A stretch of 53,443 bases of DNA from a virus. The notes below the pieces were generated by a model that saw only the letters and a program-made list of their open reading frames with translations, made no database searches and had not been told where the DNA came from. Every line of letters starts with the position of its first letter. Position 1 is the stretch's first letter. The DNA lies in the IMG/VR virus record IMGVR_UViG_3300005747_000096, positions 1-53,443 of that record; one strand, 5' to 3'. Shown piece after piece: positions 17,598-48,691 of the stretch. A program made the translations under genes and the position numbers.

Positions 17598-17615
17598 CCA
17601 CTTAATTGAGTGGCA
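17598..17615. promoter_or_regulatory. Palindromic operator-like site between divergent promoters
   Basis: CCACTTAATTGAGTGG (17598-17613) is a palindrome with one mismatched pair. It contains the 12-bp motif TGCCACTCAATT on the minus strand (17615-17604). It sits exactly between the -35 boxes of the leftward promoter (17592-17597) and the rightward promoter (17625-17630). Five other copies of the 12-bp motif lie in other intergenic regions. Confidence 0.6.
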
Positions 17616-17624
17616 TTATTGGGA

Positions 17625-17652
17625 TTGACTTTTCTGAAAAATGCTGTATAAT
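17625..17652 (+). promoter_or_regulatory. Sigma70-type promoter facing rightward, antisense to the DUF1127 gene
   Basis: TTGACT (17625-17630), a 16-nt spacer and TATAAT (17647-17652) form a near-consensus promoter on the plus strand. All genes for 6 kb to the right are on the minus strand, so a transcript from here would be antisense to the DUF1127 gene and possibly to the endonuclease gene. It could also be a fortuitous AT-rich match. Confidence 0.5.
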
Positions 17653-17683
17653 TTACTTGTAAGCCGGGGGTTAATACTACTAG

Positions 17684-17842
17684 CTAGTCATAAATACGGC
17701 TATAAATCTCACCTCTAGAGATACCCATATCCTTTAACTGTTTGTCAGACATATTCTGTAAGATCCAATAATCAGAACGTCTTTGCTGGTTCTTCTGGAT
17801 AGACTTCCAGAATCCGTTCAAGCTGTTAAACACATAATCCAT
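17684..17842 (-). CDS. DUF1127-family (YjiS-like) microprotein
   Basis: An unlisted 52-residue gene with ATG at 17842 preceded by GGAGAGTTGAT. The product ends with YWILQNMSDKQLKDMGISRGEIYSRIYD. The L-x-x-MSDxQLKDMGISRxEI core is the signature of DUF1127, a family of arginine-rich small proteins abundant in alphaproteobacteria. There, members such as CcaF1 of Rhodobacter and its Agrobacterium relatives bind RNA and affect sRNA or mRNA processing and phosphate or stress responses. The N-terminal half (MDYVFNSLNGFWKSIQKNQQRR) is basic and aromatic. A phage copy could retune host RNA turnover. It lies alone between the regulatory hub and the endonuclease gene. Confidence 0.8.
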   Translation of the reverse strand: MDYVFNSLNGFWKSIQKNQQRRSDYWILQNMSDKQLKDMGISRGEIYSRIYD

Positions 17843-17910
17843 ATCAACTCTCCTAAGTTTGTGTTGCTAAGTATATTATAGCAGCACTCTACTAAGGGGA
17901 GTTTTGTTAT

Positions 17911-18747
17911 TTAGTAATATCCGCTATGCTTCTGTAAGTACAAGATAGCTTTCTGCATTATGGTAGGATCATCCTTAAAATGCCCTAACCCTGAGTTACA
18001 AGTAGGACATAAATAACTTCTAAACTTGCCAGTAGCATGGCAATGATCCAGATGAAATGTTACCTTTCGGTTATATCGACTCGATAAACCCTCTTCGTCT
18101 ATCCCGCAAATAGTACAACAATGATTTTCAGGTAAAGGATTATCACGCTTTAGCTCGTTAAGTATACCGTCTGATCTTTTACAACAACTCTTGCATCTAG
18201 AACCTCGCTTACCCGTTTTAGAGTTTACGAAATGAAACTGGTTCTTAGGCTTACTCTCTTCACAAAGCACACATCTTTTTAAACCATATTGGTTAACTCT
18301 CCATCTTAAAAACTCACCTAGTGGAACCACCTTTAACCAGTACTTAAATTGGTTAGAAGTAATATCATGTTTGTTCAAAAACCTACTGAGATCGTTCTTC
18401 CTCATAGAAACTACAAGATCAGAGATATGCCCATGTAACTTATCTGTAATAGTATCTAGCCTTCCATAACATTTACTATGGTAAGCATTTCGGTACTTTT
18501 CGTATAAGTTCTTAAATCCTTGGTGAGAGATATAGATGCCGCTTTCACTAGAAACCTTTCTAGCCAAGGAACGGAGCGAACTAAACTGCTTGCTATCATC
18601 CACTTGATCAAAAGCAGCTTCGATAACAGATATGCTGTCATCAATTCTATAATACATATCCAAATTATCCCCCACAGAATAACCCCAGGGAGGCCTTAAA
18701 CCAGGATTAATAACCTGCCTCTTAACAGGCCAACAGTCTAACCCCAT
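17911..18747 (-). CDS. Endonuclease VII-like HNH protein with TerL-like N-terminal domain
   Basis: The 278-residue protein has three parts. Residues of about 18-87 (RPPWGYSV... to ISHQGFKNLYEKYR) match the N-terminal domain of this phage's TerL in layout and in the phrase ISHQG. A first zinc module has CVLC (159-162) and CKSC (185-188). The C-terminal endonuclease VII domain has CCTIC (210-214), FHLDHCHATGKFRSYLC (231-247), CPTCN (247-251) and GHFKDDP. Family members cleave branched DNA (T4 gp49) or act as free-standing HNH nucleases. The start overlaps the upstream stop (TAATG). It could resolve packaging intermediates or act as a site-specific HNH enzyme. Confidence 0.75.
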   Translation of the reverse strand: MGLDCWPVKRQVINPGLRPPWGYSVGDNLDMYYRIDDSISVIEAAFDQVDDSKQFSSLRSLARKVSSESGIYISHQGFKNLYEKYRNAYHSKCYGRLDTITDKLHGHISDLVVSMRKNDLSRFLNKHDITSNQFKYWLKVVPLGEFLRWRVNQYGLKRCVLCEESKPKNQFHFVNSKTGKRGSRCKSCCKRSDGILNELKRDNPLPENHCCTICGIDEEGLSSRYNRKVTFHLDHCHATGKFRSYLCPTCNSGLGHFKDDPTIMQKAILYLQKHSGYY

Positions 18748-19061
18748 TAATCTATGTTGAAGAGATCATCTACAGCGTCAGTGCTGTCCTCTATGCGCCC
18801 TGCCGTAGCCCGTAGCCTCTCAGCTAACCGGGTAAACTCATGGGCAATACTATACAGCTTCTGGTAACCGTTAATGTCACCATAAAACTCACTTAATTCT
18901 TCAGTAACGCCTTCAAGATCTACCTTAGTCTCAGTAGCCTCATCACCATCACCCACATAGATAAACGTAGCAAGATAACAAATGCCATCAGCATCTATAT
19001 CAAAGTCGTGATCTACATGAATCGGGATATCCAGCGTAATATCAGAGCCAAACTCACTCAT
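18747..19061 (-). CDS. Small acidic protein, unknown
   Basis: A 104-residue strongly acidic protein: MSEFGSDITLDIPIHVDHDFDIDADGICYLATFIYVGDGDE..., then a helical half (YQKLYSIAHEFTRLAERLRATAGRIED) and an acidic end VDDLFNID. It is transcribed from the promoter at 19108-19136, which carries the operator-like motif in its spacer, and is coupled to the endonuclease gene. DNA-mimic or inhibitor proteins often look like this, but that is only a possibility. Confidence 0.55.
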   Translation of the reverse strand: MSEFGSDITLDIPIHVDHDFDIDADGICYLATFIYVGDGDEATETKVDLEGVTEELSEFYGDINGYQKLYSIAHEFTRLAERLRATAGRIEDSTDAVDDLFNID

Positions 19062-19107
19062 AATATACTCTCAGTTAATAACAGCCTGCAGTACAGCCTG
19101 TGATTGA

Positions 19108-19136
19108 TATATAACTAAGTGGCACAACTGAGTCAA
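19108..19136 (-). promoter_or_regulatory. Promoter with operator-like motif in spacer (drives 19061 leftward)
   Basis: On the minus strand TTGACT (19136-19131), a 17-nt spacer and TATATA (19113-19108). The spacer contains most of TGCCACTTAGTT (19124-19113), the genome-wide 12-bp motif. A protein bound there would block RNA polymerase. The promoter lies 47 nt before the ATG at 19061. Confidence 0.65.
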
Positions 19137-19568
19137 TAGGATTTTACATAATACAGGAACAAATTCCTGAATTTATGGTATTATGTTGACGAAAACAGAA
19201 CGAAAGTCCTGCAGGTAGCCTATTATCGGGGCGATTTACAAGCATGAAATCCCAAAAATAGGTAGGATTGGTGCACGATACCGGGATACCCCCCATCGGC
19301 GCTCGCCCCCGTCTGCTACAACGCAAGATTTTATTAAACTATTGATTTTATTGCGTAATTTATGGGGATTTATGGGGCTGAAACTCTTTAGTTATGGGGC
19401 CAAGAGCAAAAAAAGCCAATAAAACAAAGGCTTTTCGGTAAAAAGTATCTGCAAAAAGTATTCAAAAGAAAGAAAAGCAAAAGCTTGCAGCGCAAAAGCT
19501 TTAAAATTCTGCAGGGGGTTGCACGGTGACGGGTTTATAAAGGCGGGGCGGGGGTTCTTTGGGTGCAT

Positions 19569-19629
19569 CGTTTGGCCCTTGTCTTTTAGTTTTGCTTTAT
19601 CGTTTGGCCCCTGTCTTTTAGAATATGCT
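19569..19629. repeat. Two 21-nt direct repeats 40 bp apart
   Basis: The word CGTTTGGCCCYTGTCTTTTAG occurs at 19569-19589 and 19609-19629, differing at one base. The start-to-start distance is about four helical turns, so a protein could bind both on one face. Only two copies are visible. They sit in the gene-free region downstream of the accessory operon. Confidence 0.6.
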
Positions 19630-19762
19630 CTTACAGCCAATATAAGCCCCGCTGAGTAGCCCTAACCTGGTTTCCGCTGTTTATACCTAGACCGGCTAGG
19701 CTTTGCCTTCTCTATGGGCTTTATTTCGCCCCTTATTGCCGCCCTTTATTATACCCCCAAGC

Positions 19763-19792
19763 AAAAGCCCCGCCGGTTTAAGGGCAGGGCTT
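19763..19792 (-). terminator. Rho-independent terminator of the accessory operon
   Basis: On the minus strand AAGCCCTGCC, an 8-nt loop, then GGCGGGGCTTTT. The 10-bp stem has one G-U pair and is followed by T residues, 26 nt after the stop of the methyltransferase-like gene. It closes the leftward accessory operon. Confidence 0.65.
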
Positions 19793-19817
19793 CAATCTTT
19801 TGGTTTTGGCTTGGGGT

Positions 19818-20567
19818 TTATTCTGCCGCCTGTATTTCATTTATGGCTTGGGTAAATTTGATAGTGGGTTCATTTGCTTCAAACACCGCTTGGGCAAAGC
19901 CCCTAGGCGTTGCGCTTCTAATATTCTTAGTCTTTAGGCTTTTGCCCCCTAACTTTCTATGCTGTCTTGAAGCCCCAAAACTTTCACAATTTACAGGCAA
20001 CGGGGCAGGCATAGCAAAACCGCCCCCCGTCCATAAACAAGTTTTTTTGCTATACGCATCACGGGGCGGGATATGATCGGGCCATTGCGGGTGAATTGCG
20101 TCTTGATCTTGGATATAGCCCCCGAATTGATACGGGTGAAAAGTATGATCGGGCTTGCGCCATATTGTAGATAATACGCTAACGGGGTTTTCGATCATAA
20201 AAGGGCAATCAAGCTTTTCTGCAAGATATGCAATAGCTGAACAATGGCCTGCAGCCTTATCTTGAAAGGCGGGGTCTTTTGCCCGTTTCTTTGCGAAATG
20301 CGCCGCCCCGCTAACTGCAAGATCGGTGCAAGGCGGGAAGCCTAAAACTAAAGCAACCCGCCCCGCATATTCTGCAGCAAGATCTTGCATTGTTTCGGGG
20401 CTATAAAGATCAAGCTTTGCTTTAACCATAAAGCCCCCGTTTTGATAATGATAACAAGATGCGCCGTTGTGCTGTATATCAAAGGCAATGCCCCCATAGC
20501 CTGCATTTACCCAAGGCTGCAGCGCAACCCCTGTAAAATCATAAAGCGATAAGACAAGATCACGCAT
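19818..20567 (-). CDS. Cytosine-5 DNA methyltransferase-like protein
   Basis: I use the ATG at 20567 (MRDLVLSLYDFTGVALQPW), preceded by AAAGGCGG and overlapping the previous stop by 8 nt; this gives 249 residues. Visible motifs are a motif I-like LSLYDFTGVALQPWVNAG (7-23), the catalytic loop GFPPCTDLAVSG (76-87, Cys80), ENP at 126-128 (motif VI) and RSATPRGFAQAVFEAN near the C-terminus. A clear motif VIII (QxRxR) and a long target-recognition domain are absent, so it is shorter than bacterial Dcm-type enzymes. Compact relatives occur in many phages. It may methylate phage DNA against host restriction or may be a divergent nucleotide-modifying enzyme. Confidence 0.65.
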   Translation of the reverse strand: MRDLVLSLYDFTGVALQPWVNAGYGGIAFDIQHNGASCYHYQNGGFMVKAKLDLYSPETMQDLAAEYAGRVALVLGFPPCTDLAVSGAAHFAKKRAKDPAFQDKAAGHCSAIAYLAEKLDCPFMIENPVSVLSTIWRKPDHTFHPYQFGGYIQDQDAIHPQWPDHIPPRDAYSKKTCLWTGGGFAMPAPLPVNCESFGASRQHRKLGGKSLKTKNIRSATPRGFAQAVFEANEPTIKFTQAINEIQAAE

Positions 20568-20940
20568 TTTGCACCGCCTTTGCGAAAAGACGCAAGGCAA
20601 GATCAAGATTTGATCTATAGGTTTGACCTGTTGCAAGATCTTGCATTTCAAAGGGATATTTTCGGGCTTTTGAATTATAGCCAATAAGCGAAAAGCTTTT
20701 TCCTTGATCATTGCCAATCTTTGAAACGTCTAAATTATAGAAATTTGCATAAAAATCTAAATCCTTTTCGCTTTGGCTTTTGGCCCCCTTCACTTTTACT
20801 TCAAGCTTAAAGTTTGCAACGTCTTGATCAAAGCTGCATTTTCCCGCATGTATTTCTAAGCCTTCAAATTGCTGCAGGTTTTGAAGCAATGCGTTTATTT
20901 CGCTGCGAATTGATCGGATTTTTTCTTTTGTAAATTTCAT
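20560..20940 (-). CDS. Unknown protein of accessory operon (leader copy 1)
   Basis: A 126-residue protein starting MKFTKEKIRSIRSEINALLQNLQQFEGLEIHAG, with a helix followed by an alpha/beta region (FKLEVKVKGAKSQSEKDLDFYANFYNL, KSFSLIGYNSKARKYPFEMQDL). It ends in a helix LALRLFAKAVQNA. No family recognised with confidence; similar proteins occur beside DUF932 genes on alphaproteobacterial plasmids and phages. The ATG is preceded by the repeated AAAAGGAACCGACCAAA leader. Confidence 0.6.
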   Translation of the reverse strand: MKFTKEKIRSIRSEINALLQNLQQFEGLEIHAGKCSFDQDVANFKLEVKVKGAKSQSEKDLDFYANFYNLDVSKIGNDQGKSFSLIGYNSKARKYPFEMQDLATGQTYRSNLDLALRLFAKAVQNA

Positions 20941-20957
20941 TTTGGTCGGTTCCTTTT
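20938..20957 (-). repeat. Conserved translation leader, copy 1
   Basis: Minus-strand AAAAGGAACCGACCAAAATG, including the start codon of the gene ending at 20560. The same 20 nt occur before two other genes (copies 2 and 3). AAGGA is the Shine-Dalgarno, and the invariant ACCGACC between it and the ATG is more than ribosome binding needs. Confidence 0.7.
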
Positions 20958-21024
20958 GCTAGTTACTAGCTGCAAAATCTGCAGCCCAAGGCCCCCGCCA
21001 AAGGCAGGGGCTAAAGGCTAAAGA
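20958..21024 (-). promoter_or_regulatory. Repeated intergenic hairpin upstream of leader copy 1
   Basis: On the minus strand a GCCCCTGCC...GGCGGGGGC hairpin is followed by CTTGGGCTGCAGATTTTGCAGC and then the leader. A close relative precedes leader copy 2 (about 22198-22252: GCCCCTGC...GCGGGGGCCTTGGGCTGCA). The cassette hairpin-CTTGGGCTGCA-leader appears to have been duplicated within the operon. It may act as attenuator or processing site. Confidence 0.55.
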
Positions 21025-21114
21025 CTAAGTGAAAAGAAGCGGGGCAAATTGCAGCATGATCAAAATACCAAACAAGCAAAGCCCCCCGATAAGATCACCG
21101 ATAAAGCCCCGCAT
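21025..21114 (-). CDS. 29-residue membrane peptide
   Basis: A tiny gene whose ATG at 21114 overlaps the stop of the preceding gene (TAATG). The product MRGFIGDLIGGLCLFGILIM is followed by LQFAPLLFT, essentially one hydrophobic helix. Its first 14 nt (ATGCGGGGCTTTAT) equal the first 14 nt of the preceding gene at 21341. Coupling and clean hydrophobicity favour a real microprotein, for example a small toxin-like or membrane-modulating peptide. Confidence 0.45.
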   Translation of the reverse strand: MRGFIGDLIGGLCLFGILIMLQFAPLLFT

Positions 21115-21341
21115 TATGCTGCAGCCTTTTTGAATTTATAGGCATTGCCTGATGTTTTAAAGCTTACCAAGGCCCCGTTTAATACGTTTTGAAGCGTTCC
21201 ATATGGAATTGAATGTTCGCTTATGGGTTGCCCCTTTTCATTAAGCAAAATTATATATTCCCAACGCTTTAAATGGCATTGTTTGAAGCTTTGATAGAAG
21301 CTTGTTTCTTTGCCGTTAATTTCTAAAATAAAGCCCCGCAT
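21114..21341 (-). CDS. Small unknown protein of accessory operon
   Basis: The ATG at 21341 overlaps the stop of the DUF932 gene (TGATG), giving 75 residues: MRGFILEINGKETSFYQSFK..., with a beta-rich middle (REYIILLNEKGQPISEHSIPYG-like) and a basic C-terminus YKFKKAAA. An upstream in-frame start at 21371 lacks a ribosome site. No family recognised. Confidence 0.55.
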   Translation of the reverse strand: MRGFILEINGKETSFYQSFKQCHLKRWEYIILLNEKGQPISEHSIPYGTLQNVLNGALVSFKTSGNAYKFKKAAA

Positions 21342-22171
21342 CACGCTGCAGCCTGTTCTGCGATATCCCAAAGGCCTTGGTTCAATCTCACAATTTCTTT
21401 GAGGCCGGTCACCGCTCTTGCGGATCTTGTTTTTATGCCTTTTGCGTTTCGGGATATGATTGGCAGGCCTGCCCCAAGAATACTTTCTTGAAGCCTATTG
21501 TATACTGTCCAAAGATCTTGGCTTGCGTCTTCAATCCGCTTTGGGTGATTGGCGTGTATCATGGTAACGCTATCCCAAAAGGCCCCCGTGTCGGGGCTTC
21601 TGTCTATTTGTTTCCAGCGTAAATCTAAGGCCTGCCTTGCAAGGCTTTGCTGTTGCTTAATATCAAGCTTAACTGCCTGCATTAGCGATGCGGCTTCCAT
21701 AGCCTTTGGCATGTTTTGGGCTTGCTCTTGCACAAGCTTTTCAAAGCCTGCAGTCTGGCCCCCGTCATGCCTTAGCTTTGCCTGCAGGCCTTCGCCCACG
21801 ATGCAACCATTATCACATGCAAACCGATAAATTCCCGACAGCAAACGCAAGCTTTGCGATGCATCGTGCGAATTCCAAAGCAGAATCTCAGGCCTATGCG
21901 GGGCGTCGTTTAGATCTTGTGCAAAGGCTATCAAGTGGCTTGCAAAAGGGATGTTTGCGCTTTTGCGTGATGGTCTTTGCGCTGCATAAACAGGCTTGAA
22001 CCCGTGATCTTGCAAAATTTCCACGGCCTGCATGGTATCAACAAAATCATAATTTTTTGACGTTTTAGGGGCAGGGCTTGGGGTAAATGCTGCAGGGCAT
22101 TTATCTAAAAGATCCGCTTGCGAAAGCATTGTGCGGGGGGTTTTGTCGGTGATCATTAAATCATATGGCAT
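21341..22171 (-). CDS. DUF932-family phage/plasmid protein
   Basis: A 276-residue protein. The phrases YDFVDTMQAVEILQDHGFKPVYAAQ, IPFASHLIAFAQDL, PEILLWNSHDASQSLRLLSGIYRFACDNGCIVGEGL and a helical C-terminus (ESILGAGLPIISRNAKGIKTRSARAVTGL) match the DUF932/TIGR03299 family. In that family a conserved 'N-SHDGS-A-...-G-FR-VCSNGL' core occurs; here it reads NSHDASQSLRLLSGIYRFACDNG. Members are common on plasmids and phages, often with anti-restriction or DNA-modification genes, and the biochemical role is not settled. The start follows leader copy 2. Confidence 0.75.
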   Translation of the reverse strand: MPYDLMITDKTPRTMLSQADLLDKCPAAFTPSPAPKTSKNYDFVDTMQAVEILQDHGFKPVYAAQRPSRKSANIPFASHLIAFAQDLNDAPHRPEILLWNSHDASQSLRLLSGIYRFACDNGCIVGEGLQAKLRHDGGQTAGFEKLVQEQAQNMPKAMEAASLMQAVKLDIKQQQSLARQALDLRWKQIDRSPDTGAFWDSVTMIHANHPKRIEDASQDLWTVYNRLQESILGAGLPIISRNAKGIKTRSARAVTGLKEIVRLNQGLWDIAEQAAA

Positions 22172-22188
22172 TTTGGTCGGTTCCTTTT
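22169..22188 (-). repeat. Conserved translation leader, copy 2
   Basis: Minus-strand AAAAGGAACCGACCAAAATG, ending in the start codon of the DUF932 gene. Identical to copies 1 and 3. Confidence 0.7.
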
Positions 22189-22257
22189 TTTTAGGTTTAT
22201 TGCTGCAAGATTGCAGCCCAAGGCCCCCGCAAATTGCAGGGGCTAAAGGCTAAAATC

Positions 22258-22491
22258 TTAAAAGATATCTGCCCCCATGATGTTTAAAAGCTTTGGGTTT
22301 GGGGGGCTTTCTGCATAATGCTTTTTGATATCTGCAGCCATTTCACTTTTGTCAGTATAAAAAGAACCGTCCGCAAAAAAGCTTTCACCGTCTTGATCAA
22401 GCAACCAATAGCCCCAACCGTTTTGGTTTCTTTCGGTTCCAATCTTTGCGCCTATGGTAGACGCTAAAAAGCGCAATTCTTTAATTGTCAT
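22258..22491 (-). CDS. Small unknown protein of accessory operon
   Basis: From the ATG at 22491 (TAATG overlap with the upstream stop) the product has 77 residues: MTIKELRFLASTIGAKIGTE, then NQNGWGYWLLDQDGESFFADGSFYTDKSEMAADIKKHY. It looks like a small alpha/beta fold with a helical N-terminus. No recognised family. Coupled translation with the gene before it. Confidence 0.55.
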   Translation of the reverse strand: MTIKELRFLASTIGAKIGTERNQNGWGYWLLDQDGESFFADGSFYTDKSEMAADIKKHYAESPPNPKLLNIMGADIF

Positions 22492-22727
22492 TAAACCGCC
22501 CCCGCTGTTTTTTCTTCTAATTCTTGGGGCGTGTTTGCAGTAACGCATTCAATGATTGAAACGGTGAAGACATCACCCATTTTTTGGGCCTGCTTAAAAA
22601 TATTGCTTTCTATGCTGTCTTCGATTGTGCGGCAGGTATTGCCTAAAACAGACATATCTAAAACCCGTCCTTTGAATTCTTGGTTGTATATGCCGTTTAT
22701 GGTTGCGATTGCTTCAAAGTATTTCAT
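22491..22727 (-). CDS. Small unknown protein of accessory operon (leader copy 3)
   Basis: A 78-residue protein MKYFEAIATINGIYNQEFKG..., with an alternating hydrophobic N-terminus, a helical middle (TCRTIEDSIESNIFKQAQKMG) and a C-terminal strand (VFTVSIIECVTANTPQELEE). The start follows the third identical leader. No family recognised. Confidence 0.55.
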   Translation of the reverse strand: MKYFEAIATINGIYNQEFKGRVLDMSVLGNTCRTIEDSIESNIFKQAQKMGDVFTVSIIECVTANTPQELEEKTAGAV

Positions 22728-22744
22728 TTTGGTCGGTTCCTTTT
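22725..22744 (-). repeat. Conserved translation leader, copy 3
   Basis: Minus-strand AAAAGGAACCGACCAAAATG before the gene ending at 22491. Just upstream (about 22755-22783) a GGGGCAGGGCATAAGCTTTGCCCC-like inverted repeat (two arms, no long T-run) resembles the hairpins before copies 1 and 2. Confidence 0.65.
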
Positions 22745-22826
22745 GTCAAAAGTTAAGGGGCAAAGCTTATGCCCTGCCCCTTGTTATTTCATTTCCACAA
22801 TTTAGTAAAGCCACTTTATTAATCTT

Positions 22827-22895
22827 TCAAAATAAAAGATCTAAAGCCCATAACCAAAATACGGTGAAGCCCAAAGCAGTATAAAAGATTTTCAT
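22827..22895 (-). CDS. 22-residue membrane peptide
   Basis: The ATG at 22895 overlaps the previous stop by 4 nt (ATGA). The product MKIFYTALGFTVFWLWALDL-LF is a single hydrophobic helix with Lys2 near the start. With the 29-residue peptide at 21025-21114 it makes two translationally coupled tiny membrane peptides in one operon. Confidence 0.4.
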   Translation of the reverse strand: MKIFYTALGFTVFWLWALDLLF

Positions 22896-23149: not shown

Positions 23150-23150
23150 A

Positions 23151-23366: not shown

Positions 23367-23378
23367 ATCTAAGCCCCC

Positions 23379-24149: not shown

Positions 24150-24236
24150 TTCTTGGTTTCCTTTTCGTTTTAGATTTTTGCAGATCTTGGGGTTTGTCTT
24201 TTGGGTTGGTTAGGCCCGCCCTTTAATCTGCCACCC

Positions 24237-24811: not shown

Positions 24812-24840
24812 TTGACTTTATTAATGCCACTCAGTTACAT
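24812..24840 (+). promoter_or_regulatory. Integrase promoter with operator-like motif in spacer
   Basis: TTGACT (24812-24817), a 17-nt spacer, TTACAT (24835-24840). TGCCACTCAGTT (24825-24836) lies across the spacer and the -10. The -10 is weak, which suits a tightly controlled integrase gene. Just upstream the word TATATAATGCA is repeated (24771-24802). Confidence 0.55.
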
Positions 24841-24872: not shown

Positions 24873-25946
24873 ATGGCGCATATAAAATACCTGAGAAGGA
24901 AAACACTAGAGAGTGGACATAAGATCTGGGTGGTTAATCCACCTAAATACGTCAAAGAAGCTATTGGTGCTTACTATGAGCAGTTTTCTGATCAATCAGA
25001 TGCTACTGCGAGAGCAATCAGTATTGCGGATCAGTACACCGACTACAAAAGAAACATTAAGCGTGAAGTTCATATTAATGAGCGCACGGTTGGTGGCTTA
25101 GTTAATCAGTATAAGCAAACTAACAGTTGGAATAAGCTAACCGACAACTCTAAAAGAACCTACGACCAGTTGTTGCGGGGTACACTTAGATTACGGGTTA
25201 GTGAGTCACCCAAGTTGCTACAGGACATGCTGATAGAGCATATTTCTGTTAAACATGCAGAGTATTTGTACTCACACCTGTGCAAAGATGTAAGTATGCA
25301 CAGAGCAAACCATGTGTGTAAGGTACTCAGACGCATATGGACAGTAGGCCAGCGTCTTGGGTTAACAAAAGTCAATCCATTTAAGAATATGGGTCTAAGG
25401 AAGACGCCATCCCGTACTGTTCTATGGGAACCAGAGCAAGTACATGCATTTGTCGATAAAGCAGATGAAATGGGCACTCCTTCTCTGGGTACGATGGCTT
25501 TGCTTTGCTATGACCTATGCCAGAGGCCAGGAGATATGCGTCAGCTTACTTGGCAGGACTTTCGTGATCAGATCTTTGGGTTTGAGCAGGAAAAGAATAA
25601 GACATGGGTAGATATCCCTGCCTCTCCACGGCTGTTAGAGCGGATGCAATTGGTATCCCCAAGCAACTGGCATGATCAGATTGTGTATTACGAAAAGACA
25701 GGCAAACCATATGACCGCAGGCAGTACAATAAAGTCTTCTGTCGGATCAGAAACGCTGCAGGTCTGCCCTCTGAGTTACAGCTAAGAGATCTTAGACGTA
25801 CAGGTGCAACTGAAATGGCAGAAGCTGGCTGTACTGAGGACGAATTGCGTTCTGTAACGGGCCACCAGAGCCGTGACGTTCTTTCTATCTATGTAAGGCC
25901 TACAAGAAAGCTTGCCGCTGCAGGCATAAACAAGCGGTTTGGATAA
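24873..25946 (+). CDS. int: Tyrosine recombinase / phage integrase
   Basis: A 357-residue protein. An N-terminal arm-binding region and a SAM-like core-binding domain (about 70-170: GGLVNQYKQTN... to RIWTVGQRLGLTKVNPF) precede the catalytic domain. Catalytic residues are Arg218 in CQRPGDMRQL, Arg308 in LRDLRRTGAT (the usual His of HxxR is Arg305), His331 in TGHQS and the nucleophile Tyr340 in SIYVRPT. It should recombine the tRNA-Met-derived attP at 27194-27240 with a host tRNA gene. The start ATG follows GGGAG. No excisionase is recognised, although the small genes downstream are candidates. Confidence 0.9.
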   Translation: MAHIKYLRRKTLESGHKIWVVNPPKYVKEAIGAYYEQFSDQSDATARAISIADQYTDYKRNIKREVHINERTVGGLVNQYKQTNSWNKLTDNSKRTYDQLLRGTLRLRVSESPKLLQDMLIEHISVKHAEYLYSHLCKDVSMHRANHVCKVLRRIWTVGQRLGLTKVNPFKNMGLRKTPSRTVLWEPEQVHAFVDKADEMGTPSLGTMALLCYDLCQRPGDMRQLTWQDFRDQIFGFEQEKNKTWVDIPASPRLLERMQLVSPSNWHDQIVYYEKTGKPYDRRQYNKVFCRIRNAAGLPSELQLRDLRRTGATEMAEAGCTEDELRSVTGHQSRDVLSIYVRPTRKLAAAGINKRFG

Positions 25947-26234: not shown

Positions 26235-26373
26235 GGAACTTTCGCATTTAGCCTACCACCTAGATATGTTAGGTGTAGTGCCACTCAAGAAGGTGGAAGA
26301 AGAAAAGAAGCTTCACCGTACATATGAGTATAGAAAAGTCGAATTAGATGAAAATGGAGAGCCACCTTGGTAG
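26224..26373 (+). CDS. 49-residue charged microprotein
   Basis: The product from the ATG at 26224 is MESKELSHLAYHLDMLGVVP, then a Lys/Glu-rich helix KKVEEEKKLHRTYEYRKVELDE and an end GEPPW. It overlaps the TTG start of thyX by 7 nt. Coding position within the int-thyX string and coupling are the only support. Confidence 0.45.
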   Translation: MESKELSHLAYHLDMLGVVPLKKVEEEKKLHRTYEYRKVELDENGEPPW

Positions 26374-27193: not shown

Positions 27194-27240
27194 TGGTTGC
27201 GGGAGTAGGATTTGAACCTACGACCTTCAGGTTATGAGCC
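27194..27240 (-). other. attP: attP core: 3' part of a tRNA-Met(CAU) gene
   Basis: Read on the minus strand, the 47 nt start GGCTCATAACCTGAAGGTCG and end in a T-arm GTAGG-TTCAAAT-CCTAC, then TCCCGCA, a discriminator A and CCA. This is the anticodon loop (CAU), variable loop, T-arm and acceptor 3' strand of a tRNA-Met or initiator tRNA. The 5' half is absent: upstream is AAAA instead of a complete anticodon stem. A tRNA 3' end in a phage genome near a tyrosine integrase is the classical attP identity segment, which restores the host tRNA after integration. Confidence 0.85.
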
Positions 27241-27393
27241 TTTTCAATGAAAACAATGGGTTATAGACGCCAAAGGTTAATAGGCCCATAACTCTGCCAC
27301 ATAATAATGTGCTTGACTTATATCAAAAAGCCTATAGCCTGCGGCTAACCCGCCCAGGGTTAGTAATAGCAACTAGCTAAGAGGCACAAGGCA

Positions 27394-28681: not shown

Positions 28682-28885
28682 ATGAAAGCTAGAGGAATTG
28701 TAGTAATAGACTACGATATTGAGGGTGGTTTCCTAGAAGCTGCAGAAGAGCAACAGAAACTGCAAGAAGCTATCGCTTCAATCGTGAAAGGCAACAAGCG
28801 TGTTGTATTTCACCAAGTGGATATGAAAGAGCGCAGAGGTGATCAAACCCCTGACATCAAGTCCATGAAGTTTAGGAACAGCTAA
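28682..28885 (+). CDS. Small unknown protein
   Basis: A 67-residue protein MKARGIVVIDYDIEGGFLEA, then a helix EEQQKLQEAIASIVKGNKRVVFHQVDMKERRGDQTPD. The beta-alpha-beta look and a D-x-D near the start give no clear family. Similar short proteins sit between primase and helicase in marine podoviruses. Start after AGGGAATGGTATA. Confidence 0.55.
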   Translation: MKARGIVVIDYDIEGGFLEAAEEQQKLQEAIASIVKGNKRVVFHQVDMKERRGDQTPDIKSMKFRNS

Positions 28886-30396: not shown

Positions 30397-32531
30397 GAGT
30401 CTTAGTACTCGACTTAGAAACCACCGTTAAGAAAATCGAGGGCAAGATTGATAACAGCCCTTTCAATCCACAGAATAAGTGTGTCTCAGCGCACTTTGGT
30501 TTTCTTGGGTGGGATACGGTAGACGAGGTGACTAACCTTGTCTTCCATCATAATGAAATAGAAACTCCTGATAGCCGTAAGGCGTTAGAACATTCGTTAG
30601 AACAGGCTGACGTGCTAGTAGCACACAACGCCAAGTTTGATGTTGCTTGGCTTATTGCAATGGGCTTCGACATACCAGAAACCGTATTCTGCACGATGCT
30701 TTGCGAATATGTACTGGCAAAAGGCCAGAGGCAGGAACTATCGCTTAAAGCTACAGCGGAACGCAGGGATGTAACCCGCAAGAAATCAGATCTTGTAGAT
30801 GAACTCTTTAAGAGTGGTACGGGCTTTGAGGCAATGCCTTTGGATACTGTACTGGAGTATGCAGAAGCGGATGTTATTTCCTGCGCTGAGATATATCTGG
30901 CCCAACAGAATGACCTAGCCCATGAAAGCAACCAATCGTTAAAGGAAACGATTAAGCTTACAAACGAAATGCTTCTTTTTCTTGTAGAGATAGAAGGTAA
31001 TGGCATCAAAGTGGATCTGGATGTACTTGCAGGGATCAAAGAAGAGTTTCTTGCAGAGCAAACGGAATTAACCAAGCGGCTTGAAGAAATTGTTGAGCAA
31101 GTGATGGGTGATACCGTCATAAATCTTAACAGTGGGCAGGATATGACACGGGTTGTATATAGCCGTGAGGTCATTGATCGTGATGATCACCAACAGGTCT
31201 GGAATATCGGTACAGACAGCAACAACAAGCCCTTGTTTCCACCCAGAATGAACAGATCACAGTTTAACGCTGCGGTAAGGGCTACTACACGGGTTGTATA
31301 TAAAACCAATGCTATTTGTTGTGATGCCTGTGATGGTAGGGCGTATATACAGAAGTATAAACAGAAAACCCGCCAAAAGAACGGTAAGAAGTATCGTGTT
31401 CAAGGCGAACCCTACAAGAATCTGTCTAAATGCCCTTCCTGTGCGGGTGTTGGCGCATTCTATCAGCCTAATGGCAAGGTAGCAGGCTTACGTCTTAACC
31501 CAACCATGCCCTCTGATGCTTCTATCAATGGATTTAAGACCGACAAGGTTACCATCCAGCGTTTAATCTCGCAGGCAGAGGCCAAGGGCAATGATACCGC
31601 CGTTGAGTTCCTGACTAAGAGCAGTAGGCTTAACGCAGTCAGTGTGTATCTGGATTCTTTCGTTAAGGGCTTTGAAAATTGGACACGGGCAGATGGAATT
31701 CTGCATACCAATTTTACTCAGCATGTCACGGCAACAGGCCGACTATCTAGTACTTCTCCAAATATGCAGAACGCCCCAAAGCGGGGTTTTCCTGTGCGTA
31801 AGGCTGTCGTTAGTAGATTTGAAAACGGAATCATCGTTGAAAGTGATTTCAGTTCTGTTGAATTCGTTTTGGCTGGGGAATTATCCCGTGACCCCCAGAT
31901 CATATCTGATGTTAAGACAGGCAAGGATCTACACAAACAGACTGCATCTATCATCTACCAATGTAGTGAAGATGAAGTGACAAAAGACCGCCGCCAGGCG
32001 TCTAAGAAATTCAGTTTTGCGCCAATTTATGGAGGATTGGGCGCTGGAGAGGCAGATCACGTCCGATCATATTTTTCAACTTTTTTTGAGATTTATGAAG
32101 GTCTGGGTGCGTATCACCGCAGGCTTGCAGATGGCGTTTTAAAGAATGGTATTGTGCAGATCCCATCAGGCAGACAGTTCTTTTGGCCTAACGTAGTTCG
32201 TAAGCGTGGGGGCCGTACCAGCCACTACACACAGATCGTAAATTACCCTGTGCAATCTTCTGCGGCAGATTTGATGCTACTGTCCTGTGTTCGTGCGCTT
32301 CGCAAGTTCAGAGAACTTAACCTACGTTCTAAACTGATACTCACCGTCCATGACTCAATTGTCTCAGATGTCTATCCCGGCGAACTTGAGAAAGTCAAAG
32401 AAGCCCTGACATGGGCTATGGTGGAAGTAACCAAAGAGGCTGAACAGCGCTGGAATTACACCTTCGCTCTGCCCTTAGAAATAGAAATATCAGGCGGCAA
32501 AAACTGGCTAGATCAAGTCGAATATGATTGA
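30393..32531 (+). CDS. polA: Family A DNA polymerase with DnaJ-type zinc-finger insert
   Basis: A 712-residue replicative polymerase. The 3'-5' exonuclease has LDLETT (6-11), AHNAKFD (77-83) and YAEADVISC (156-164). A cysteine module follows: ICCDACDGRAY (308-318) and KCPSCAGVGAF (346-356), i.e. two CxxCxGxG-like DnaJ repeats, placed between exonuclease and polymerase. This is the feature reported for phage HMO-2011. The polymerase has motif A ESDFSSVEF (483-491), motif B RRQASKKFSFAPIYG (533-547) with Arg534, Lys538, Phe542 and Tyr546, and motif C VHDS (652-655). Phe542 aligns with E. coli Pol I Phe762. It overlaps the gene before it by 4 nt. Confidence 0.92.
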   Translation: MRVLVLDLETTVKKIEGKIDNSPFNPQNKCVSAHFGFLGWDTVDEVTNLVFHHNEIETPDSRKALEHSLEQADVLVAHNAKFDVAWLIAMGFDIPETVFCTMLCEYVLAKGQRQELSLKATAERRDVTRKKSDLVDELFKSGTGFEAMPLDTVLEYAEADVISCAEIYLAQQNDLAHESNQSLKETIKLTNEMLLFLVEIEGNGIKVDLDVLAGIKEEFLAEQTELTKRLEEIVEQVMGDTVINLNSGQDMTRVVYSREVIDRDDHQQVWNIGTDSNNKPLFPPRMNRSQFNAAVRATTRVVYKTNAICCDACDGRAYIQKYKQKTRQKNGKKYRVQGEPYKNLSKCPSCAGVGAFYQPNGKVAGLRLNPTMPSDASINGFKTDKVTIQRLISQAEAKGNDTAVEFLTKSSRLNAVSVYLDSFVKGFENWTRADGILHTNFTQHVTATGRLSSTSPNMQNAPKRGFPVRKAVVSRFENGIIVESDFSSVEFVLAGELSRDPQIISDVKTGKDLHKQTASIIYQCSEDEVTKDRRQASKKFSFAPIYGGLGAGEADHVRSYFSTFFEIYEGLGAYHRRLADGVLKNGIVQIPSGRQFFWPNVVRKRGGRTSHYTQIVNYPVQSSAADLMLLSCVRALRKFRELNLRSKLILTVHDSIVSDVYPGELEKVKEALTWAMVEVTKEAEQRWNYTFALPLEIEISGGKNWLDQVEYD

Positions 32532-32532
32532 C

Positions 32533-32562
32533 TTGTGCCACTTAGTTGTGCCACAATATAAC
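32533..32562 (+). promoter_or_regulatory. Promoter/operator before SSB-like gene with double motif
   Basis: TGCCACTTAGTT (32536-32547) is followed by a second TGCCAC (32549-32554) and TATAAC (32557-32562). A -35 TTGTGC at 32533-32538 gives an 18-nt spacer; an overlapping TTGACT (32528-32533) is another option. Two motif copies in tandem suggest strong control of the SSB/recombination unit. Confidence 0.5.
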
Positions 32563-44496: not shown

Positions 44497-45043
44497 CTTG
44501 AGGCTCCTCTTCGTTATTATTCATACCCAACATACTGGCCTGTTCTTCATCCGAAGAACTCATTGCCTCTTGCGGAGAAGGGGTTCCCATCAAACCACCT
44601 GTCCTCATAGGCGGTGGTGATGGCGGTGCTGCCACATCAGGATCTTCATCCTCTAAAATGCCCAGCGCCATTCTTAGGCTCGTGGGAGTAATCATTTTGT
44701 CTTTGTCGGTAGACGGAACCATCTTGTGTTTGATCCCAGCCTCTTTAGCTATTATTTCCATGTATCGGGCTACCGGCCCTGCAATGAGAATTGCTAGGTC
44801 AATGGATACCTTCCCTTTGGATATCCCTTGCATCAGTAGGGAACCCGTCAGACTAGCGGCGTCCATCTTTAGCTGCAGCATGGACATTACCAAGTGTTGT
44901 TGCTCTGGCTCATTCAACTTACTGATAAAATAATCTACCGCCTCATCGTAGTCGGTATATTCTGGCGGTCTGTGCCAAGGATAATTTCGGGTATCGGCAG
45001 TGAAGTTTGCGCCGGGAATAGGTGCATCAATTGGGAGTACCAT
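44483..45043 (-). CDS. Unknown virion-region protein
   Basis: A 186-residue protein: MVLPIDAPIPGANFTADTRN, then YPWHRPPEYTDYDEAVDYFISKLNEPEQ with a helical middle (MVMSMLQLKMDAASLTGSLLMQGI) and a Pro/Met/Glu-rich tail. The motif RPPEYTDYDEAVDYFI recurs in marine phage proteins next to internal virion genes. Function unknown. Confidence 0.6.
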   Translation of the reverse strand: MVLPIDAPIPGANFTADTRNYPWHRPPEYTDYDEAVDYFISKLNEPEQQHLVMSMLQLKMDAASLTGSLLMQGISKGKVSIDLAILIAGPVARYMEIIAKEAGIKHKMVPSTDKDKMITPTSLRMALGILEDEDPDVAAPPSPPPMRTGGLMGTPSPQEAMSSSDEEQASMLGMNNNEEEPQDGLA

Positions 45044-45208
45044 TTATTCTTCTTCCTTTTCGACTTCGCCCACCAGTTGCTCCTCAAGCTGGTCAAAATA
45101 ATCAGGGGTGTAGACTAGGCCACCTTCCTTCAATCCATTGGAGTTGATAGGCAGTTTACCATCAAGAAACCGCTTCACTGACTTCACTACTGCGTGTTCA
45201 AACTTCAT
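45044..45208 (-). CDS. 54-residue acidic protein
   Basis: The ATG at 45208 overlaps the end of the S74 gene by 11 nt, and the TAA abuts the next ATG (TAAATGG). The product MKFEHAVVKSVKRFLDGKLP is followed by INSNGLKEGGLVYTPDYFDQLEEQLVGEVEKEEE. It is small, acidic and helical. It sits in the virion operon and is well supported by spacing only. Confidence 0.55.
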   Translation of the reverse strand: MKFEHAVVKSVKRFLDGKLPINSNGLKEGGLVYTPDYFDQLEEQLVGEVEKEEE

Positions 45209-47474
45209 TGTTTATCATCCCGTAATTTACTCGGAGGTAACCGTCCTCGCCTTGAGTCACGGCGTGTGGATGTGTTTTCAGGACTTCTTGGGCCAATACA
45301 CCAATGCTAGGATGCTGGTCTGCGCCTAATTCCTTGCCCTTATCGTTCCAATCCCAAGTGTAGTAATTTACATTGCCTATGGTCGAATAATGCTGAATGT
45401 TTTCTTTAAGTCGGGTGTCTGACCAATCTAACCAATCTCTATCAAAGGTATCCACTAGATCGACTTCTAGTGCCCCATCATCAAATGGATTAAGGTCAAT
45501 ATCGCCCTCAAGAACATTTTCCACTGAATCTACCAGATCTACTTCAAGAGCTTCGCCCTTCCCAAATGGATTAGCGTCTAAAGCCTCTAAGGCGGCTACT
45601 GCAGCAATTGTTGCGGTTACTGGGTTTGAAAGAGAGAGAAGACCTATTGCTTCATCTGACACATCACTTGTATCGCCGCCGCCGGTAAATAAATCCACGG
45701 CCCCACTTATAAGATCTTCTGCGCCACCAATAAAGTCGATGCCTTCGCCATCGCCACCAACAAGATCCTCAAAGCCGCCAATAAAATCTATTCCGTCACC
45801 ATCGCCAATTCCGACTGCCCCTAGAACAGAATTTACCCCATCCATTATGCTGCTTGCAGTGCTGCCTACCCCATCCTTATAGATAGAAGCGGTTAAAGCC
45901 GTACCCGCCAGACCAATAAGGGCTGTCATAGTTTCACTCATGCCGCCACCCGCTTCGGCATCAGCCTGCGCCCGGATTCCTGCCATTAGAATATTAGCAT
46001 CACGATCCGCATCGCTGTTGTAATTATTTACTGTGTGATCCAGTAGACTATCGACCCGATCCCACATTTGGTTCATCGCCTCTTGGCTTAGATCCAATCC
46101 ATTACGAACATCCTCAGTTTGAGCGTCAAAGGCTAACTCAGTATTTGTCTCGGCTACGGATTGCCGCCATTGGGCATTGTCGGAGTCAATCTGGTATTGC
46201 ATGTCTGCATAGTACCGCTGCCGACTGTCTTCCATTTCGGCTTCAAACTCAGCGCCATCGTTTAGTTCACCCGCATTAAACCGTTTGATTTGATTAAGCT
46301 GCTCAGAACGATGCATTTGAATATTGGCATTCAGGTTATCGTAATACTTCGTAAAATCGTTTTCTTGTTCAGTATCAAAGCGTCTAGCCACATTGGTTTC
46401 GGCGGCATCTGATAGCATTACGTCTATACGTTCTTGGGTATTAATAATCTCTGCTTCCTGCTCAAGATCCAAGTTCTTTAGATCCATTTGCAAAAAGGCA
46501 TCAGCGTTGTTTACCGCCGCAGTTTCCCTAGCTCCTAGATTGGCTACCTCAAACTTAGCCAAAGTTTGCGCTTTGTTAATAATCGACTCTTGGCGATTGT
46601 CTAAGTTTTCCGTAGTCAGCGTTTGGAAAAAAGCTGCCTCATCCTTTGATATGCCAATCGTCGCTTCCATAATAGCGTTTGCCATCGCTGCAGTCGCTGC
46701 AGTGCCTGACATACCATCAAAGGCTATACTGCGTTTTAGCATACGGGCAGTACTTTGCGCCCACGGTGGGATAACAGGCTCACCAGTATCAGGGTCTTTA
46801 AACTGACGGCTTATGATATCCATCTGACCAGCAATCGTGGCCTTGGCGTCAGTGTAGTTTCCCTCTCCCAATTCTTCCGCAAGTAAACGGCCAGAAGTTG
46901 TAGAAGTATCAATAATGGTGGAGAAGTTCTGAGTAGCGTATTGGTTTAGGGCAGCACCGGTCTGGTTAACTGTGCCATCTTCGTTAACGCCAGTAGCAGC
47001 CGCATCGATGTCAATTTCTATATCACTGGCGTCTATAAGCGCATTAGAATCCTCAGTGATCTCACCCTGTGCCGCATTGACCGTAGTTTCAGGAGTTCCT
47101 AGTGAACCTTCTACAGTCTCAACATTATCTGAGTAACCTGCCGCATCAGGAATATCAGTAAATTCATTAGCTAATTCAGCATCGTCTTCATCTACCGTAT
47201 TCGTATTATCTATGACTAGATCGTCGCCTAGATCATACCGCTCATCAGTAGCATCAAGATTTGTTCCCGTGGCGTCTGCATCTAGCTCAGTATAATTATC
47301 ACTTACCAGAAGATCATTATCAGCCAAAAACGTATTAGGATCATCGGCTAATGACTGTATATCAGTATCCTGATCAGTCATGCCAACGTCATCCATCGCA
47401 CCGTCGAGATCGAAGATGTCTTGGTTTTCTGTTTCATCCTCTATGGGTAGGATTGTCACATCATCTTCAGCCAT
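45198..47474 (-). CDS. Large virion protein with peptidase S74 chaperone domain
   Basis: From the ATG at 47474 (MAEDDVTILPIEDETENQD), after AGGGA, the product has about 758 residues. The first 200 residues are very acidic with repeated Asp/Asn/Thr. The middle is helical (NLDNRQESIINKAQTLAKFEVANLG...) and the C-terminus has Gly-Asp-Gly-rich repeats (SVLGAVGIGDGDGIDFIGGFEDLVGGDGEGIDFIGGAEDL). The end WSDTRLKENIQHYSTIGNVNYYTWDWNDKG is the peptidase S74 intramolecular chaperone, with Ser in SDTRLKENI and Lys as the self-cleavage pair. It is probably a spike or tail-associated protein, unusual for its acidic N-terminal region. Confidence 0.7.
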   Translation of the reverse strand: MAEDDVTILPIEDETENQDIFDLDGAMDDVGMTDQDTDIQSLADDPNTFLADNDLLVSDNYTELDADATGTNLDATDERYDLGDDLVIDNTNTVDEDDAELANEFTDIPDAAGYSDNVETVEGSLGTPETTVNAAQGEITEDSNALIDASDIEIDIDAAATGVNEDGTVNQTGAALNQYATQNFSTIIDTSTTSGRLLAEELGEGNYTDAKATIAGQMDIISRQFKDPDTGEPVIPPWAQSTARMLKRSIAFDGMSGTAATAAMANAIMEATIGISKDEAAFFQTLTTENLDNRQESIINKAQTLAKFEVANLGARETAAVNNADAFLQMDLKNLDLEQEAEIINTQERIDVMLSDAAETNVARRFDTEQENDFTKYYDNLNANIQMHRSEQLNQIKRFNAGELNDGAEFEAEMEDSRQRYYADMQYQIDSDNAQWRQSVAETNTELAFDAQTEDVRNGLDLSQEAMNQMWDRVDSLLDHTVNNYNSDADRDANILMAGIRAQADAEAGGGMSETMTALIGLAGTALTASIYKDGVGSTASSIMDGVNSVLGAVGIGDGDGIDFIGGFEDLVGGDGEGIDFIGGAEDLISGAVDLFTGGGDTSDVSDEAIGLLSLSNPVTATIAAVAALEALDANPFGKGEALEVDLVDSVENVLEGDIDLNPFDDGALEVDLVDTFDRDWLDWSDTRLKENIQHYSTIGNVNYYTWDWNDKGKELGADQHPSIGVLAQEVLKTHPHAVTQGEDGYLRVNYGMINNEV

Positions 47475-47718
47475 TGATATTATCCCTTTCGGCTTCGCAT
47501 CGCCTGATACGATCACGTAAGTAAATGTAGTTTTTCATCGCTTCCTCTATCGCCCGACTATCAGGTGGAAGAGCTTCGATTTCGTCTGCTAATTGATTGT
47601 TAAATCTGTCATCGTACTGCGCCATCGAAGGGCAGTAGACCTCAAGCTGCGTCCTATAGACCGTTGTTACGCAGCCGGTCAGTGACAGAGCGACGATCAG
47701 TAAGGGTATCGCTCTCAT
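47467..47718 (-). CDS. Outer-membrane spanin lipoprotein (Rz1-like)
   Basis: An 83-residue protein. MRAIPLLIVALSLTGCVTTV has a signal peptide with the lipobox LTGC (Cys16). The mature part is short and ends with RDRIRRCEAERDNING. It overlaps the Rz-like gene (47654-47893) by 65 nt in another frame, the classical Rz/Rz1 layout. Together they fuse inner and outer membranes at lysis. Confidence 0.75.
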   Translation of the reverse strand: MRAIPLLIVALSLTGCVTTVYRTQLEVYCPSMAQYDDRFNNQLADEIEALPPDSRAIEEAMKNYIYLRDRIRRCEAERDNING

Positions 47719-47893
47719 GTTCTGCCATATTTTTGTAAAAATCAGAGGCCTTTGTCTGTGCCTCTAATTCGTCCTCAAGGACTTTGGTTTTCTCTTTAGC
47801 TCGTCCTTTGACCTGACCCATCACGTAAAGGATAGGTAAGGCCAGAGCTAAAGCGCCTATTGCGTAGGACTTTATTTTGGAGAAAAGCATCAA
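47654..47893 (-). CDS. Inner-membrane spanin (Rz-like)
   Basis: A 79-residue protein: an N-terminal membrane helix (IKSYAIGALALALPILYVMG) and then a charged coiled-coil region (KAKEKTKVLEDELEAQTKASDFYKNM-like). This is the Rz-type i-spanin layout, upstream of and partly overlapping the Rz1-like lipoprotein. Its start overlaps the lysozyme stop by 4 nt. Confidence 0.75.
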   Translation of the reverse strand: MMLFSKIKSYAIGALALALPILYVMGQVKGRAKEKTKVLEDELEAQTKASDFYKNMAEHESDTLTDRRSVTDRLRNNGL

Positions 47894-48621
47894 TGGATGC
47901 CTTCCTTGTGGTCGTTGAATCTGGCATACGCTGCCAGTGCGATACCGCCTAAAGCACAGAGCAAAAAGATAGTCTTCATGCTATCGCTATAGGGAACCAA
48001 GGCTTCGATCTGAGGGGCAATTTCGCCCAGCGCCGTAGCGGCCCCAGCTACACCAGCGCCCACCATAGTCTTAGACTTAGTAAGTGGCTTAACTGCTTCG
48101 GCAGTAACCTTTTGAGCCATCATCGGCCCACCCTCATCAGACGGTAGTTGGGCGTCACGGGAGAAGATAGCGGCTTCGGCTGAACGGCGGCGTGTCAGAC
48201 CCCGAAGAGGTGTTAACTTGCCATCTACCCTGGCTTTGTTCCATCTTAGAAATTGCTCTGGTACGGCGTCATAATTTCCAGAGTTCAGTAGGCGCAGCAA
48301 AGTTGATGACTTGAAGTTGCCACCGCCCAAGTTGAAAACGAAGGACGTTAAAGCGTCATACTGGCCTTGCGATAATGGTACGTTAACGTATTTTTTAACG
48401 ATCTTGCCGTGTTCATCTAAGTCTTCCATCAACCGCTTTTCGGCATAATCCACAGTCCACTTGTCGCCAGACCTTACGCCTTTCGTGGCACCATATCCGT
48501 TTGTCCAACGGTTTGCGACACAGCGGTAGGCGTGGACTAATCCATCGTCACCCATCTTATGTAGGCCTTCGAACTTCTTCACTAAATCAACGCATTGCTG
48601 CGATACACTTACGGGATGCAT
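47890..48621 (-). CDS. Endolysin (GH24 lysozyme) with C-terminal membrane helices
   Basis: From the ATG at 48621 (MHPVSVSQQCVDLVKKFEGL), after AAAGGAAG, the product has 243 residues. The GH24 fold has Glu18 in KKFEG, ANRWTNGYG at 36-44, LSQGQYDALTSFVFNLGGGNF and LTRRRSAEAAIF. After residue 180 there is a hydrophobic segment (MVGAGVAGAATALG) and a second (MKTIFLLCALGGIALAAYA) ending in a charged tail. A lysozyme with its own C-terminal membrane region is unusual and may be tethered or carry a holin-like part. Driven by the operator-containing promoter at 48663-48691. Confidence 0.8.
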   Translation of the reverse strand: MHPVSVSQQCVDLVKKFEGLHKMGDDGLVHAYRCVANRWTNGYGATKGVRSGDKWTVDYAEKRLMEDLDEHGKIVKKYVNVPLSQGQYDALTSFVFNLGGGNFKSSTLLRLLNSGNYDAVPEQFLRWNKARVDGKLTPLRGLTRRRSAEAAIFSRDAQLPSDEGGPMMAQKVTAEAVKPLTKSKTMVGAGVAGAATALGEIAPQIEALVPYSDSMKTIFLLCALGGIALAAYARFNDHKEGIH

Positions 48622-48662
48622 ACTACTTCCTTTGGGGTATAAATTTTTAGGGGGATACAATC

Positions 48663-48691
48663 ATTATAAATAATTAAGTGGCATTAATCAA
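48663..48691 (-). promoter_or_regulatory. Lysis promoter with operator-like motif in spacer
   Basis: Minus strand TTGATT (48691-48686), a 17-nt spacer, TATAAT (48668-48663, perfect). TGCCACTTAATT (48683-48672) fills the spacer. It lies 42 nt upstream of the endolysin ATG. Confidence 0.7.

Follow-up and report, generated by a model that had tools for sequence, protein, structure and literature searches.

The virus record IMGVR_UViG_3300005747_000096, a single IMG/VR record of 53,443 bases that was analysed over its whole length (the window), carries the 12-base motif TGCCACTYARTT at six places (sites A to F, Table 1), and we consider this motif likely to be the main half of an operator. The operator would be recognised by a single DNA-binding regulator that the phage itself encodes, most probably a repressor. 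Judged from its genes, the window phage, a marine bacterial virus, is an HMO-2011-type (subgroup III) relative of the Roseobacter phages CRP-3, CRP-235, CRP-738, and CRP-212. An earlier note on this DNA had listed six exact matches, all intergenic, as possible sites of one regulator. All six were recovered at the same positions and strands; the set itself has changed, since site A is judged to be a separate element and a weaker palindrome (site G) had been overlooked. The operators counted in the window are therefore five (B to F) plus site G, and it is inferred from sequence that B to F would be bound by a protein that represses and serves lysogeny.

In shuffled versions of the window, the exact motif occurred 0.03 times on average (largest count 1; none of 100 shuffles with six), and copies with one mismatch are absent from the window. 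When the choice of motif was corrected for by considering every class of 12-mers in which two positions, wherever they lie, distinguish only purine from pyrimidine, the only class that tied with the count of 6 for TGCCACTYARTT was a palindromic one, counted on both strands, and in 12 Markov shuffles the top class always peaked at 4. A de novo motif search in the window also ranked the motif first, with a score of 73.7 compared with 57-60 in four shuffles. All six sites are intergenic, although intergenic 12-mers make up 5.9% of the total (4e-8 if the sites are independent; the figure uses 71 hand-listed coding sequences, and the four among them that do not form an open frame as listed are not near any site). 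Every site lies within 80 nucleotides (nt) upstream of a start and is oriented along the downstream gene. It is extremely improbable that the sites are unrelated lookalikes or chance occurrences, an explanation to which the behaviour of site A and the chance level of two-mismatch sites lend something and which, for B to F, is largely refuted by the excess, the intergenic placement, the coherence within genomes, and the conservation at orthologous promoters.

Sites and promoters in the window

At C, D, E, and F, the motif occupies the space between the -35 and -10 hexamers of sigma-70-like promoter sequences, from which we infer a repressor. A protein bound in these spacers would exclude host RNA polymerase, and the operators at B to F would control the gene of the 78-amino-acid (aa) protein B78, an acidic 104-aa gene, the integrase gene, the recombination block that follows the DNA polymerase, and the lysozyme gene, with the primase operon added for site G. 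The repressor would silence these promoters in the prophage or turn them down late in infection, as Cro does, and it may serve to maintain lysogeny. The earlier note had tied integrase, recombination, lysis, and perhaps capsid genes to one regulator, and the first three links stand, probably with one regulator, whereas the capsid link does not.

Table 1. Coordinates of the features discussed, as positions in the window
Feature	Position	Strand	Description
Site A	8794..8805	-	exact motif in the capsid-gene leader
B78	17305..17541	-	78-aa protein, second, less favoured regulator candidate; weak winged helix-turn-helix match (HTH_33)
B78 promoter	17568..17597	-	TTGACC-N18-TATAAT, 11/12
Site B	17598..17613		palindromic operator CCACTTAATTGAGTGG; overlaps exact motif on the minus strand, 17604-17615
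Divergent promoter	17625..17652	+	TTGACT-N16-TATAAT, 11/12
Site C	19113..19124	-	spacer of TTGACT (19131-19136)-N17-TATATA (19108-19113), hexamers by eye
Site D	24825..24836	+	spacer of TTGACT (24812-24817)-N17-TTACAT (24835-24840), upstream of integrase, hexamers by eye
Tyrosine integrase	24873..25946	+
attP core	27196..27231	+	phage attachment site; 3' end of tRNA-Met(CAT)
Site G	27295..27312	+	weaker palindrome TGCCACATAATAATGTGC; adjoins TTGACT (27313-27318), before primase operon
H67	28682..28885	+	67-aa protein, weak regulator candidate; between primase and helicase
Site E	32536..32547	+	spacer of TTGACT (32528-32533)-N18-CACAAT (32552-32557), 9/12
Site F	48672..48683	-	spacer of TTGATT-N17-TATAAT, 10/12

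Site B carries a perfect CACYYARYTRRGTG, adjoins the -35 of the B78 promoter, and is flanked by two divergent promoters that are the best two sigma-70-like promoters in the 18.5 kb scanned; the earlier placing of this site in a palindrome between divergent promoters is thus borne out, both promoters scoring 11/12. Upstream of B78, the palindrome is kept in closer relatives, and other inverted repeats stand there instead in farther ones (by eye). A TATA element recurs in many relatives at the place of the rightward promoter (by eye). This rightward promoter is strong and would run antisense to the leftward genes; no plus-strand open reading frame (ORF) of more than 32 aa starts between 17652 and 18519. 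Site B also adjoins a gene for a DUF1127 protein (17684-17842, minus strand; Pfam E 1.3e-8), and in CRP-3 and CRP-212 it is before the DUF1127 gene that a perfect palindrome lies instead.

Site C lies upstream of the 104-aa gene (18747-19061), and the orthologous promoters carry a site in several relatives. The protein itself (minus strand, net charge -20) was found in four of 50,697 phage records, all belonging to this subgroup, and may be a DNA mimic. Site E is situated between the DNA polymerase gene and a 276-aa gene and is accompanied by a second TGCCAC, and site F is upstream of the lysozyme gene (ATG about 48621). The promoter overlaps proposed earlier for these sites were supported by the scan for F (where 1 promoter-like site was found and 0.7 expected) and by eye for C and D, which are absent from the list of the promoter scanner; for E, the pair TTGACT-N18-CACAAT replaces the proposed TTGTGC-N18-TATAAC, which was the poorer of the two. 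Site G, which has no clear -10, probably belongs with B to F. Related sites occur at its place in two relatives (G001 and G017; G and L numbers are working labels for genomes and loci) and, by eye, also in CRP-235, G012, G016, and G018.

The sites might bind an activator or a lytic-phase timing factor, with B and G, which adjoin a -35, as the activator positions, and we hold this to be unlikely. Both B and G are indeed directly upstream of TTGAC, the controlled genes include lytic functions such as lysozyme, and of the two candidate proteins one is encoded in the replication arm and the other ahead of the small genes that precede the terminase; however, the promoters at C, D, E, and F have recognisable hexamers (read by eye for C and D) with the site between them, so that a protein bound there should keep RNA polymerase out, and the site flips within the spacer in relatives.

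Site A requires a different explanation from the proposed operators. No promoter was found over it, and in an alignment of 14 capsid-gene leaders (in which G001 and G010 are misplaced) TGCCAC is kept in eight, including CRP-212, G005, G006, and G009, whose operators have other letters, and is not kept in CRP-3, G008, CRP-738, and G007. Because TGCCAC persists before the capsid gene in phages with differently lettered operators, the capsid link was dropped and site A is judged to be a separate conserved leader element rather than an operator. More broadly, the leader (8738-9033) contains ACTGCCACT followed by a TTGTCCTCTTC-like stretch that is kept in 8 of the 14 aligned subgroup genomes, even in G009; it may represent a late promoter or else an RNA leader that is processed.

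Letters of the proposed operators in related phages

Conservation was examined most widely in the region after the DNA polymerase gene. Most of 73 loci, a selection from which the majority of those 97-99% identical were left out, have TTGAC followed by a spacer element of type GCCACYTARYTATGCCA or a lettered variant; the element is missing in L197 (which is G009) and L205 and deviates in L184, L194, and L195. An automatic set of 95 E sites, into which some genomes entered twice, comprises 64 of the GCCAC type and 31 others. HMO-2011, CRP-1, and CRP-345 keep the promoter (TTGAC-N17-TATAAC), with the spacer element missing. Perfect CACYYARYTRRGTG palindromes number five across five genomes and are all intergenic. 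The 11 genomes of the GCCAC letter class, including the window, contain 49 matches to GCCACYYARYW, of which 34 lie between genes; with the window set aside, the figures are 27 of 39. The reversed control gave none in these genomes, which are approximately 90-95% coding. The motif is thus not equally frequent in coding DNA, an outcome that the earlier note had named as fatal to its proposal. A related motif came first in the de novo search of CRP-212 (73.3 compared with 50-60 in shuffles). When repeated intergenic 11-mer classes were counted in 16 genomes, dropping classes with runs of five A or T, the motif was first or tied in the window, G001, CRP-212, and G010 and was listed in CRP-3; in ten genomes it was not among the seven classes listed.

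The element is flipped, still within the spacer, at the counterparts of site C in G002 and G004, of D in CRP-3, and of E in G020 (by eye), as would be expected for the target of a DNA-binding protein and less so for a promoter element tied to one strand. We regard it as very improbable that the motif belongs to a promoter used by a special sigma factor or RNA polymerase. Such a role would agree with the orientation of all six window sites along transcription and with the lack of one-mismatch copies elsewhere in the window; against it stand, besides the flipped elements, the presence of sigma-70-like hexamers and the variable distance of the motif to the -35, which it follows by 6, 7, 2, and 2 nt in C, D, E, and F, respectively, and precedes in B and G.

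Agreement between sites is closer within a genome than across genomes. The core of the E site matches the integrase and 104-aa promoters of its own genome at 10.20 of 12, as opposed to 8.86 for those of others, a difference reached in none of 20000 permutations over 15 genomes, although it counts against this test that the genomes are related. The 15 were taken from 20 genomes: G003, being almost a copy of the window, was excluded, G007 and G008 were not entered, and G018 and G020 had no integrase hit. For a set of eight genomes picked for their differences, with the GCCAC type represented by two, the values were 10.00 and 8.45 (1 of 20000 permutations). One site class with phage-specific letters at several promoters, the mark of a dispersed-operator system, was thus found; it is clear in the window, G001, CRP-3, and CRP-212 and mixed in CRP-235.

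The earlier note had left room for a host protein as the regulator, which we now consider quite unlikely. CRP-3 and CRP-212 both infect strain FZCC0040 and consistently differ in the base before CAC at intergenic sites, which is G in 6/6 cases in CRP-3 and in 0/10 in CRP-212 (A 8/10, C 2/10; p 1.2e-4, a test weakened by the fact that palindromes contribute two halves). Because these two phages share a strain and differ in letters, it is unlikely that a shared host protein sets the letters. Moreover, G009 (IMGVR_UViG_3300021197_001923, host not known) lacks the element, and several of the corresponding promoters there carry a palindrome unrelated to it: TAGTGCACTA occurs there six times compared with 0.06 expected (e.g., at 26332, 29871, and 34936), leads the class counts of that genome, and is found after the polymerase gene and before the helicase, integrase, and two further genes, with no copy in the other 19 genomes. 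Several points nevertheless favour a host regulator, namely that no phage regulator was recognised, that the letter classes other than that of G009 mostly have a CAC(Y)TA-like core in common, and that CRP-235, also on FZCC0040, lacks a consistent letter, since G, C, and A each precede CAC once.

This mixture in CRP-235 also weighs against operators read by one phage-encoded regulator, and so do the following observations. The agreement of the E core with its own promoters is only 7 of 12 in CRP-235 and 8 in G009, and the letters before CAC are mixed in G003 (2 A, 3 C) and G008 (2 G, 1 A). De novo searches in CRP-235, CRP-3, and CRP-738 ranked terminators, leaders, or other repeats above the motif, and in 11 of the 16 genomes neither the motif nor the G009 palindrome leads the class counts. 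Fifteen of the 49 core matches in the 11 genomes fall inside ORFs, as does one of the six G009 palindromes, which is inside the primase gene. Site F is not common to the close relative G003, none of whose four core matches lies before the lysozyme gene. In the window, allowing two mismatches abolishes the enrichment (26 seen and 18.65 expected, with 9 of 100 shuffles reaching 26), and promoter-like sites overall are not in excess (25 compared with 36.0 expected in shuffles of the 18.5 kb that includes B and E). Finally, no repressor gene was recognised, and one profile search of genome contigs with the polymerase alignment as query found no prophage relative.

Other repeated intergenic sequences were noticed in these genomes. 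In the window, a 25-base leader with AAAAGGAACCGACCAAAATG is common to three leftward genes (20934-20958, 22165-22189, and 22721-22745, minus strand), and other subgroup phages have repeats of their own, such as CTAACTTGRAR in CRP-3 and G008. These phage-own sequences are perhaps a second phage-specific regulatory target.

Candidate regulators

In agreement with the earlier statement that no repressor gene is obvious, a search for lambda-type repressors with PF01381 (HTH_3) gave no match in the window at an expectation value (E) up to 1, with a control that was positive in 14/14 genomes. In six relatives, the only match to the same profile stayed below threshold and fell within a 1179-aa frame of CRP-3. 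A search for a T7-type polymerase yielded no match, and its control search likewise gave none, so that this negative carries no weight. When sites of sigma-54, LexA, CtrA, and MerR were compared by eye, all four were dropped as identities of the motif.

The best lead is H67, which is weak and falls short of an identification. By tblastn it is present in 15 of 16 large genomes, and the sixteenth, G009, has at the same place a highly diverged 261-aa protein with end motifs in common (by eye). Among 50,697 phage records, H67 turned up in 4, each of them from this subgroup. Its structural model (predicted local distance difference test score, pLDDT, 89) has no match among PDB structures at E up to 10, its sole match among viral models is an unnamed protein (E 0.14), and the best hit of a profile search had an E of 1.2. 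In two of three tests, H67 covaries with the operator letters beyond other proteins: the partial Mantel correlation was 0.218 (35/2000) with five proteins and 32 loci and 0.583 (7/2000) with four proteins and nine genomes, where the 104-aa protein reached 0.364 (70/2000). In a three-protein set of 43, the value was 0.132 (158/2000) and the helicase did better (0.175, 53/2000), and a column-by-column mutual-information test did not favour H67, whose best column ranked 31. We advance only tentatively, and as improbable, the proposal that the operators are read by a new DNA-binding family with H67 as the lead. The subgroup would then form a natural series of immunity types, each change of the operator being accompanied by one of its reader.

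The second candidate, B78, was rejected as the reader. Its HTH_33 match has a Pfam E of 0.015, below the cut-off (6.8e-4 for one genome). The protein is acidic, and the window and G001 have the same operator but not the same putative recognition helix in B78. Its model is poor (pLDDT 74), structural matches did not improve on E 1.0, and the partial correlation of B78 with the operator letters is negative (-0.262, nine genomes).

Lifestyle and comparison with known repressors

The assignment of the window phage rests on its DNA polymerase, which is 57-65% identical to those of CRP-235, CRP-738, CRP-3, and CRP-212 and 34-38% identical to those of HMO-2011 and six further HMO-2011-type isolates. 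Orthologues of most of the window's replication and head genes are present in the same four CRP phages, and polymerase and gene order in common with them place the window in subgroup III, to which CRP-3 has been assigned (PMC9038755). The block at 1-7690 is different: eight of its ten genes have no detectable orthologue in the four CRP phages, and if the record is read as circularly permuted relative to CRP-235, all ten are placed after the capsid gene on one side and next to the tail genes on the other. The block is either an insertion or an assembly effect.

The phage is probably temperate, because it has an integrase and the same tRNA-Met 3' end as the integration target of CRP-3, which integrates into the tRNA-Met(CAT) gene of its host FZCC0040 (PMC6918029). 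This 36-base sequence is identical in 59 of 327 loci, and a 44-bp match between the window and CRP-3 turned out to be the attP. No tRNA genes and no Rfam matches were found in the window. The attP lies between the thymidylate synthase and primase genes, so that integration would separate the integrase from the replication genes.

Among known systems, the lambda CI and Cro proteins act on palindromic operators, in two clusters, between divergent promoters and over lytic promoters. The palindrome of site B between divergent promoters resembles this arrangement; the window differs in having single sites at many promoters and no detected HTH_3 repressor. The phiC31 repressor recognises conserved inverted-repeat operators dispersed at many early promoters, and the proposed operators of the window, dispersed at promoters and in part inverted repeats, are similar in kind. 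The C1 repressor of P1 has 22 operators spread over the genome, through which it represses lytic genes, with an asymmetric 17-bp consensus, ATTGCTCTAATAAATTT (PMC8546580). One phage repressor, as proposed here, with operators dispersed over the genome would be alike; the motif differs from ATTGCTCTAATAAATTT (by eye), and the window has 5-6 sites, one of them a full palindrome. In cluster A mycobacteriophages such as L5 and Bxb1, related phages have related but distinct operator letters that form immunity types, and L5 has 20-30 sites, mostly outside promoters, for which one orientation is needed (PMC6550527, PMC9283540). The repressor of this system is a monomer that combines a helix-turn-helix with a further DNA-binding domain. 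Short scattered sites with phage-specific letters in an integrating phage, lying along transcription in the window, are features in common. Unlike these stoperators, however, the exact sites are six in number and all lie at most 80 nt upstream of a start, site B is palindromic, and the orientation that is fixed in the window (6/6) is reversed, as judged by eye, at the corresponding promoters in G002, G004, CRP-3, and G020.

A survey by titles and the openings of abstracts, with subscription literature mostly outside it, found no report of an operator set in HMO-2011-type phages or roseophages, and neither "repressor" nor "promoter" occurs in the main text of PMC9038755 or PMC6918029. The operator set described here predicts which promoters are controlled in these phages, and its letters suggest which phages of the same host should be heteroimmune, such as CRP-3 and CRP-212. 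The operator may also serve as bait for pulling out the regulator.

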